Positions 3,397 to 5,277 of a stretch of DNA of 8,330 nucleotides are shown one piece after another; the first letter of the stretch is position 1; every line of letters begins with the position of its first letter. The translations under genes were made by a program, and so were the position numbers. The stretch spans positions 1-8,330 of the forward strand of contig DAHWFZ010000031.1 in the NCBI GenBank assembly GCA_027336345.1, given 5' to 3'. The notes beneath the pieces are model-generated. The model saw only the letters and a program-made list of their open reading frames with translations. It was not told the origin of the DNA and did no database searches. Source of the stretch: Candidatus Wolfebacteria bacterium. GTDB taxonomy: Bacteria > Patescibacteriota > Minisyncoccia > UBA6257 > UBA9933.

Positions 3397-5277
3397 ATGG
3401 CTCAAATAAGAAAAGTCCAAATACCCAATCTTCCTTTTGTTATTTCTTTGAATGTATCTTTGGCGGTTGTCTTGGCAATCGCGCTGGTTATTGATGTTTT
3501 TAAAATATTGCCGGTGCCGCAGATGGTTCTTATTATACTTTCAATAATCGGATTGATACCGGTTTTAATAAGCGCGCTCAAGGCGCTCAAAACCGGAGAA
3601 ATGACAATCGACTTATTGGCCAGCATAGCGCTTATATTTTCATTTTTAGCCAGACAGTGGTATTCGGCGGTATTTATAAATTTAATGCTGGCTTCGGCGC
3701 GTATTTTTGATTTATGGACGGCAATGAGGGCAAAAAATATAATCCAGCACCTGATGAAATTCCGCCCCACTAAAATAAAAATAAAAGAAGGCGATAAGAT
3801 TATTGAGAAGGAAGTTGAGCGTGTTAAGGCGGGCGATCAGGTTGTGGTTGAGGCGGGGGAGCGCATTCCGGTTGACGGAGAAGTTATTTCCGGGCAAGCA
3901 AGCGTTAATGAGGCTACGCTCACGGGGGAAAGCGTCCCGGTTGTGAAAAAAACCGGCGATAACGTTTTAACTTCCACTTTAAACGAGTCGGGATCTTTGC
4001 TTGTTAAAGCGGTCAGGATCGGAAAGGACAGCACGCTGGAAAAGCTGATAGCCTTGGTTGAAGAAGCAAGCCGCAAGAAAGCCAAGACGGAAAGGATAGC
4101 CGCCAAATTTACGCAGTGGTACATTTTAATTACTCTTGCCGCCGCCATAATAATTTATTATTTTTCGCGTGATTTGCTTTTGGTTTTGTCGGTGCTTTTG
4201 GTTGTCTGCGCGGATGATATCGCCGTTGCCGTGCCTTTGGCGTTTACGGCTGCAATTGCCAGAGCCGCGCAGCTTGGAATTGTGATTAAAGGTTCTGACG
4301 TCTTGGAGACTTTACCCAAAATTAAGGTATTTATGACTGACAAAACCGGGACTTTGACTTATGGAAAACCGAAAATAAAAGAAATCAGAATTATCCAAAA
4401 AATGGATGAAACTGAATTTTTAAAATTATTCGGCATGGCGGAAGTTGCGGCCGGCCATCCGGTTGGAAAAGCCATAATGAGATATTTGAAAGAAAAAAAT
4501 ATTCCCGTTGCGTCTCCCGATGAAGTCAATGAAGTGCCGGGAGAAGGAGTTTCGGTCGTAAAAAACGGCAAGAAATATTTTGCGGGCAAAATAGATTTTC
4601 TAAAGGATAACGGGATAACCACGGGCAATGAGGAATTAAAGCAAATTGAAGAAATTGAAAATAACGGGTTCAGTATCGTCAGTTTGGGAACTGATAAAAA
4701 ACTTATCGGTTTTGTGATTATAGAAGATGAAGTAAGGCCGTTTGCCAAGATGCTGTCAAGATCATTGAAAAAATTAGGCATTAAAAGAATTGTTATGCTT
4801 ACCGGGGACAACAGCCGCGTTGCGGCTCGCGTTGCAAAAGAGCTTGGGATTGACCAATATGAAGCCAATCTGCATCCCGAGGAAAAGCTGAAATTTATTG
4901 AAGGAACAAACAAAAAAACCAGAGAAACCATTGCAATGGTCGGAGATGGCGTTAACGACGCCGCTGCCTTGGCTTTGGCCGATGTAAGCATTGCCATGGG
5001 CGCTATCGGCTCAGACACTGCCATTGAGGCCGCTGACGTGGCTTTGATGAAAGACGATCTAAGGCGCGTGCCGGATATGATTTTCTTGGCTAAAAAAACC
5101 CGCAGCATTATTATCCAAAATTTTGCGATCTGGGCAATTACCAACGCGATTGGGTTGGTATTGGTAGGCGTTGGAGTTTTGGGTCCCATAGGGGCTTCAA
5201 CATATAATTTTTTGACTGACTTTTTGCCGATATCCAACGCGCTGAGAATAAGTTTTTTTCACCCGAAAGAATTTTAA
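3397..5277 (+). CDS. P1B-like P-type ATPase with an atypical ion motif
   Basis: This is an ATP-driven cation pump of the inner membrane, 626 aa. Four N-terminal helices (about 12-35, 41-64, 69-86, 88-107) and the overall order match P1B heavy-metal ATPases, but the usual N-terminal metal-binding HMA domain is missing. Catalytic parts are intact: TGES (176-179) in the actuator domain, DKTGT (315-319) with the phosphorylated D315, GHP (353-355) as the P1B nucleotide-site HP pair, TGD (469-471) and MVGDGVNDAAAL (514-525). The helix at 260-285 normally carries CPC, CPH, SPC or TPC; here it reads VVCADDIAVAVP, with C271, D273 and D274. The last helix has YNFLTDFLPISNALR, adding D608. The ion cannot be assigned; P1B is the closest fit. 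The gene starts 31 bases after dinB, without an SD, from what looks like its own promoter. Confidence 0.92.
   Translation: MAQIRKVQIPNLPFVISLNVSLAVVLAIALVIDVFKILPVPQMVLIILSIIGLIPVLISALKALKTGEMTIDLLASIALIFSFLARQWYSAVFINLMLASARIFDLWTAMRAKNIIQHLMKFRPTKIKIKEGDKIIEKEVERVKAGDQVVVEAGERIPVDGEVISGQASVNEATLTGESVPVVKKTGDNVLTSTLNESGSLLVKAVRIGKDSTLEKLIALVEEASRKKAKTERIAAKFTQWYILITLAAAIIIYYFSRDLLLVLSVLLVVCADDIAVAVPLAFTAAIARAAQLGIVIKGSDVLETLPKIKVFMTDKTGTLTYGKPKIKEIRIIQKMDETEFLKLFGMAEVAAGHPVGKAIMRYLKEKNIPVASPDEVNEVPGEGVSVVKNGKKYFAGKIDFLKDNGITTGNEELKQIEEIENNGFSIVSLGTDKKLIGFVIIEDEVRPFAKMLSRSLKKLGIKRIVMLTGDNSRVAARVAKELGIDQYEANLHPEEKLKFIEGTNKKTRETIAMVGDGVNDAAALALADVSIAMGAIGSDTAIEAADVALMKDDLRRVPDMIFLAKKTRSIIIQNFAIWAITNAIGLVLVGVGVLGPIGASTYNFLTDFLPISNALRISFFHPKEF

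Follow-up and report, generated by a model that had tools for sequence, protein, structure and literature searches.

Which ion does a P-type ATPase of the P1B lineage transport when the hallmark of its lineage has been replaced? Within the P-type superfamily, the P1B ATPases are the soft-metal branch, with the CPx motif as their hallmark. The window analyzed here (the whole 8,330-nucleotide stretch of a contig from a Candidatus Wolfebacteria bacterium) encodes such an ATPase of 626 residues on the forward strand (positions 3397-5277, an open frame from ATG to TAA), with Cys-Ala-Asp-Asp (CADD) at the place of that motif. A clade of pumps that has lost CPx, and whose replacement residues match those of calcium and magnesium pumps, makes it possible to test clearly how ion choice is determined; if the reading developed below is true, a few residues on an eight-helix scaffold would suffice to rebuild the ion class of a P-type ATPase. 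The question also bears on the annotation of proteins from Patescibacteria, organisms with few transporters, that are now called Cd2+/Zn2+ or Cu+ exporters.

The original prediction held that the phosphorylation cycle is intact, and the translation agrees, all motifs being on the forward strand: TGES (residues 176-179, the dephosphorylation motif of the actuator domain; 3922-3933), DKTGT (315-319, D315 being the phosphorylated aspartate; 4339-4353), GHP (353-355, the HP motif of the P1B nucleotide domain; 4453-4461), TGD (469-471; 4801-4809), and GDGVND (516-521; 4942-4959). Only two Pfam domains, PF00122 (actuator) and PF00702 (hydrolase), were found, in line with the predicted lack of an N-terminal HMA domain. 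Among NCBIfam models, the protein passed the cut-off of TIGR01525 for heavy-metal P1B pumps (507.2 versus 346.25 bits) and the curated cut-off of the cadmium-family model TIGR01512 (406.8 versus 313.5 bits), did not reach that of the copper model TIGR01511 (356 versus 397 bits), and fell far short of the required score for each Ca2+, Mg2+, H+ or K+ model that it touched, e.g. 69 versus 703 bits for the P2A model TIGR01116. All 22 members of set A1 likewise matched TIGR01525 at E ≤ 0.001. On these scores and on the second tree described below, we rejected a fused or misannotated calcium pump.

The M4 helix reads VVC271-A272-D273-D274-IAVAVP, with CADD at 4207-4218. The program phmmer aligned CADD with the CPC of CopA and ZntA and with the SPC of sCoaT, so that M4 has C-A-D-D where CPC, CPH, SPC or TPC would mark a P1B pump, and a normal CPx motif is therefore absent elsewhere in the protein. 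The missing proline, which had been pointed out beforehand, is called essential in the accessible part of PMC9387928. The last helix (M6) carries the expected YNFLTDFLP, that is, Y-N604-F-L-T607-D608-F-L-P611, whose spacing N604-x-x-T607-D608-x-x-P611 (5206-5229) is that of the P2A motif NLxTDGLP. M5 contributes W579 (5131-5133) and N583 (5143-5145). The earlier residue set (C271, D273, D274, and D608) was thus incomplete, having overlooked N604 and N583, which complete the calcium-pump pattern.

An AlphaFold2 model (pLDDT 88.7, pTM 0.85) shows helices at residues 12-34, 42-66, 71-84, 88-120, 230-257, 260-292 (broken at 270-272), 557-592, and 597-620. By our own assignment, these are predicted to be the eight P1B helices MA, MB, and M1-M6; the modeled chain ends after M6, short of the ten helices of a P2A pump. 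At position 53, the second glycine of the Gly-Gly kink in MB, Gly occurs in none of 40 CADD rows versus 59 of 74 other P1B rows; the kink is described for P1B-1, P1B-2, and P1B-4 in the accessible text of PMC8880997.

To place the protein within the superfamily, two trees were built, both without the motif columns of M4 and M6. The first comprised 85 rows; another 22 of the 107 available, being closely related or redundant, had been taken out by hand. In it, the 32 CADD rows formed one clade (100/99) inside P1B, and the nearest clade (86/98, with a bootstrap of 86) consisted of nine rows with TPCP in M4 and QExxD in the last helix. The second used 95 of 119 rows, with eight of the 11 rows lacking the DKTG letters and three P2A rows added; the 24 omitted rows include L124_1 and L103, whose sequence stops short of M6. 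No readable ORF was obtained from L168. It kept both groupings (SH-aLRT 99 for CADD and 98 for CADD plus TPCP), and the P2A rows fell outside the P1B clade. In both trees, rooted on other P-type ATPases, the CADD clade thus lies inside P1B; in both, many rows drew warnings of odd composition, and in the second, the outgroup branches were flagged as long. We take TPCP in M4 together with QExxD in the last helix to be the mark of P1B-5. The CADD ATPase has CADD and NFxTD at these places and belongs to a separate, neighboring clade. The loss of Gly at position 53 is common to the two, with Gly in one of nine TPCP rows and 0/40 CADD rows. In Table 4 of PMC7558416, as far as this source was accessible, P1B-5 is listed with Ni(II)/Fe(II) and the substrate of P1B-7 is given as unknown.

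The conservation of the motif was assessed in 295 aligned proteins, i.e. the window's ATPase and 294 proteins from three homologue searches (the best 120 of each). Positions 271-274 read CADD in 293 of them, AADD in one (P0060), and CAVD in one, so the motif does not vary freely among homologues. N604, N583, W579, G586, A272, D274, F609, and P611 are invariant in 295/295, while C271, D273, and D608 each have a single exception (294/295); at position 607, 287 proteins carry Thr and eight carry Ser. The second Cys of CPC is absent from all 295 proteins, and none has a CxxC in its first 60 residues. The joint conservation of the M4 motif and the last-helix aspartate, which the original prediction had proposed to look for, is therefore borne out within the family.

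Because the homologue lists were picked by similarity, the limit of the motif was sought separately in genome samples. When 286 genomes of the phylum were searched, CADD with NFx[TS]DFxP was present in all of the top ten matches (at least 543 bits); the next match, at 453 bits, has TPCP with QExxD, and CADD was found in none of the 39 further matches readable in M4 (from the next 20 loci and 20 stretches). In Chloroflexota, the next match scored 507 bits, and none of the 25 matches read there (of 33 listed from 251 genomes) has CADD. Ten genomes of other groups, including one without any match, yielded 12 loci that were read, again with no CADD. A degenerate DNA pattern for CADD is present in 15 of 379 phylum genomes, including the window's own: 12 of the hits are P-type ATPases, all with NFx[TS]DFxP, and three are unrelated frames, and the reversed control pattern hit 0/379. 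Among the 118 pattern matches listed for GTDB contigs, at least 19 encode a CADD ATPase; the names of eight of these records point to Patescibacteria, and those of the other 11 give no phylum. An initial protein-level scan of genome contigs had found no relative. A chance motif was rejected on the basis of the 293 CADD sequences among 295, the M6 motif in every true pattern ATPase, and the empty control.

The names given to relatives (Pacebacteria, Woesebacteria, Zambryskibacteria, Paceibacterota, and others) indicate Patescibacteria. The single exception among members shown with an organism or group name is P0217, labeled Undibacterium sp. MAG, perhaps because of a binning error. Some members are named Cd2+/Zn2+-exporting ATPase or Cu+ transporter in databases, probably by homology. 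We found no description of the CADD motif in the full-text literature on P-type ATPases of Patescibacteria or the Candidate Phyla Radiation, on P1B subgroups, and on uncharacterized P-types, insofar as these texts were accessible, subscription papers lying mostly outside.

In order to see which part of the pump differs from other P1B pumps, we called a position family-specific when one residue occurs in at least 95% of the CADD rows and at most 15% of 74 other P1B rows. Fourteen positions qualify, all in predicted membrane helices and nine of them in M4 and M6: 79 in M1; 90, 93, and 102 in M2; 268, 272, 273, 274, and 277 in M4; 579 in M5; and 604, 605, 609, and 611 in M6. R102 fails in the wider set (215/295); at position 579, the invariant Trp stands where other P1B rows mostly have Ala, Thr, Ser or Gly. 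The pair N604 and D608 is confined to the CADD rows, with 0/74 among the others. D608, which the original prediction had listed, does not by itself mark the family, for Asp is found there in 28 of these other rows (9/9 TPCP/QExxD, 18/18 CSC/CAC, and L205). Asp at 273 occurs in five, all CPDAL. The rebuilt part is thus the transport site, the remaining machine being that of a P1B pump. Judged from sequence, the CADD pumps are a new variant within P1B that arose once according to these trees and has a near-invariant signature and a ligand set like that of calcium pumps; the earlier suggestion of a new subtype is upheld to that extent.

The resemblance to calcium pumps was examined with hhalign, using 90 CADD proteins against 16 P2A pumps of the same phylum (probability 100, 532 columns). 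D273 falls on the glutamate of the P2A motif PE(A/G)LP, the position of SERCA E309, with a two-residue gap directly before it; N604, T607, D608, and P611 fall on N, T, D, and P of NLxTDGLP. In M5, N583 is matched to the Asn of the P2A pumps and G586 to their site I Glu. The CADD ATPase thus combines two P2A traits, NxxTDxxP in M6 and an M4 acid at the E309 position. From this acid to the phosphorylated Asp, the distance is 42 residues in both types (D273 to D315 here; E290 to D332 in the P2A pump listed first). This P2A profile could also be aligned with LMCA1 position for position, and its table matches include SERCA. According to the accessible part of PMC11977196, LMCA1 binds one Ca2+ at a site equivalent to SERCA site II, with M6 Asn716, residue 720, and M4 carbonyls, and its gating Glu292 corresponds to SERCA Glu309; residue 720 is Asn as printed in that source and Asp in the PDB sequence. 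The Mg2+ path proposed for MgtA runs through E331, N706, N734, and D738 (PMC10925321, accessible part), and by our reading these may occupy the same four helix positions as the CADD site.

The match to calcium pumps is incomplete. D273 is Asp and not Glu, D274 has no calcium-pump counterpart, the M5 Glu of site I is G586, and the helices past M6 are absent. With respect to P1B pumps, N604 aligns with the M6 Asp of ZntA, presumably residue 714, and with sCoaT His657; D608 aligns with Thr in both. Position 583 is Lys in ten ZntA-type P1B rows; the M5 Lys of P1B-2 is described as a built-in counter-ion in the accessible text of PMC10654040.

The CADD ATPase is the only P-type ATPase found in the source assembly (554 kb, 84.5% complete), and its gene lies 31 bases downstream of a DinB-like polymerase gene (IMS domains) on the same strand. 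We surveyed neighbors and RNA families at 29 CADD loci (the window, 19 genome loci, and nine further loci), some of which end near the gene, with a masked stretch in L014, so that neighbors may be missed. At gathering scores, only rRNA and tRNA were found as RNA families, and no general partner gene emerged across the 29 loci, neither a conserved metal-resistance neighbor nor a partner subunit. The commonest neighbor group comprises ABC transporter parts (labeled by eye; seven loci); in four loci (the window, at 33-779, L024, L103, and L128), a gene for an ABC-2 type permease is found no more than five genes from that of the CADD ATPase. An NDH-2-like protein (by eye) is a neighbor in three of the 29 loci. 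One group of four loci joins the P-type ATPases of L070, L101, and L124 with the HMA-like protein of L121: the second ATPase is of CPC type in L070 (opposite strand), of PVTLP type in L101 (three ORFs on), and of PEALP type in L124, adjoining or near the CADD gene. In L121 (G033 contig 5), the CADD gene adjoins a protein with an HMA-like start and a SafE-like membrane part (by eye), and a CPC pump lies about 2.8 kb from it. A ZIP-like protein, again labeled by eye, lies near the CADD gene in L104. RNA elements and neighbors do not settle the ion; the metal-type neighbors of L070, G033, and L104 lean towards transition metals.

From these observations, we consider it probable that the CADD ATPase has a shared ion site formed by M4 to M6. 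With its carboxylate and amide groups, this site favors a divalent cation that is harder than Cu+ or Zn2+. The original prediction had suggested such a harder ion; this would remain plausible and is strengthened by the calcium-pump alignment and the MgtA residues, but the near-invariant C271 (294/295) and the passing of the TIGR01512 cut-off argue against a purely hard ion. Our leading prediction, held tentatively and at somewhat less than even confidence, is that the pump exports a single divalent cation of hard or borderline character, with Mn2+ or Fe2+ as the likeliest candidates, via a site like calcium-pump site II. Mn2+ and Fe2+ are preferred over Ca2+ because C271 is kept and because the sister group resembles P1B-5. 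The Nramp recipe for Mn2+ and Fe2+ is likewise an Asp, an Asn, and a sulfur ligand. That a heavy-metal P1B pump was converted in Patescibacteria to transport a hard cation, giving rise once to a subtype (a P1B-8) convergent on the M4-acid/M5-Asn/M6-NxxTD site of calcium and magnesium pumps, seems to us an evenly balanced proposition.

A possible mechanism would run as follows. M4 is predicted by the model to unwind at 270-272 despite the missing proline. In E1, the cation would enter from the cytoplasm and be bound by D273, N604, D608, and backbone carbonyls where M4 is unwound; D274 and the thiol of C271 would be close by. Phosphorylation of D315 by ATP would then turn the site outward and release the ion. 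A carboxylate (D273 or D274) might be protonated in exchange, given that the M5 Lys counter-ion of ZntA-type pumps is absent and N583 stands in its place; proton counter-transport, as proposed for LMCA1, would be more likely.

The same residues could also serve a Ca2+ or Mg2+ exporter whose site works as site II of LMCA1 and SERCA or the inner site of MgtA, C271 giving its backbone carbonyl only. Calcium pumps and the residues named for MgtA agree with the acid in M4, the Asn in M5, and NxxTDxxP in M6, and the lone AADD member P0060 suggests that the Cys can be lost; yet it is kept in 294 of 295 proteins, and we regard this reading as unlikely. P2A-type pumps (E ≤ 1e-100) occur in 6/29 CADD genomes versus 56/145 phylum genomes, which is the direction expected if one pump replaces the other. 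However, the association is not significant (Fisher p 0.06-0.09) and both pumps stand together in those six genomes; replacement of P2A pumps by the CADD ATPase was therefore rejected as not significant.

Less likely still is an ordinary exporter of heavy metals (Zn2+, Cd2+, Co2+ or Ni2+) in which the ligands were swapped to Cys and Asp and the ion class stayed unchanged. Its P1B ancestry, its score above the TIGR01512 cut-off, the retained Cys271, the use in ZntA of Cys along with an Asp located in M6 where N604 stands here, the CPC pumps of L070 and G033, the ZIP-like gene of L104, and the database names, which are probably homology labels, would all be accounted for. It has to be set against these that the second Cys is missing in 295/295 proteins, that the membrane carboxylates are near-invariant, and that no metal-resistance neighbor is conserved. 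Transport of protons or of a monovalent cation is very improbable, as is an altered role without a divalent substrate, comparable to that of KdpB, whose main substrate bypasses the canonical site: three carboxylates could take up protons, and Na,K-ATPase and KdpB also match the fold, but no partner subunit is conserved beside the gene and the residue pattern fits divalent-cation pumps.

Other unusual P1B pumps occur in the same phylum. In several ZntA-like P1B ATPases, the near-universal DKTGT reads DKTRT or DKTKT (Gly to Arg or Lys) with GDGVND kept (L134, L136, L137, L140, L144, L146, L149, L150, L151, L159, and L164), and the eight of these placed in the second tree formed one clade (SH-aLRT 99). 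CPD in M4 (CPDAL, with Asp for the second Cys and the proline kept) was found in L142, L154, L161, L134, and L137. A further variant with carboxylates is the P1B-like pump of L133 (G170 contig 38), in which M4 has EPAVL and the last helix HEGGE.

Compared with known systems, the CADD pump shares with P2A pumps (SERCA, LMCA1, SPCA) the M4 acid at D273, the M5 Asn at N583, and NxxTDxxP in M6, whereas P2A pumps are longer, with extra C-terminal helices, PE(A/G)LP in M4, and a M5 Glu at G586, and lie outside the P1B clade. MgtA would share the same inner constellation, but is a Mg2+ importer with extra site residues in M7 and M8 that are absent from the CADD pump. ZntA (P1B-2) and sCoaT (P1B-4) resemble it in overall fold and cycle motifs; in contrast, they keep CPC or SPC and have Asp (ZntA) or His657 (sCoaT) at the N604 position. 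A broad substrate range, extending even to Ca2+ and Fe2+, is reported for P1B-4 pumps in the accessible parts of PMC8880997 and PMC10654040, and a harder ion would therefore have a precedent in P1B.

Two further groups come close in M4 and M6. Chloroflexota pumps with CSC or CAC and QSLPD (loci L206-L208, L210-L221, L224, L228, and L229, the last with HSLPD) have likewise lost the CPC proline and have Asp at 608, N583, and G586; unlike the CADD pumps, they keep the second Cys, have Gln (17/18) or His (one) at 604 and Gly53 in 18/18, and are not the sister group in our trees. We assume that they are perhaps P1B-7. Some P1B-5 pumps have a hemerythrin tail (PMC9388753, accessible part), which the CADD pump lacks. 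The P1B-5 (Nia) type, with TPC(P) and QExxD, is the nearest clade, with Asp at 608 in both and a residue other than Gly at position 53 in 8/9 TPCP rows and all 40 CADD rows; the CADD pumps differ from it by the changes of TPCP to CADD, Q604 to N604, and S583 to N583.
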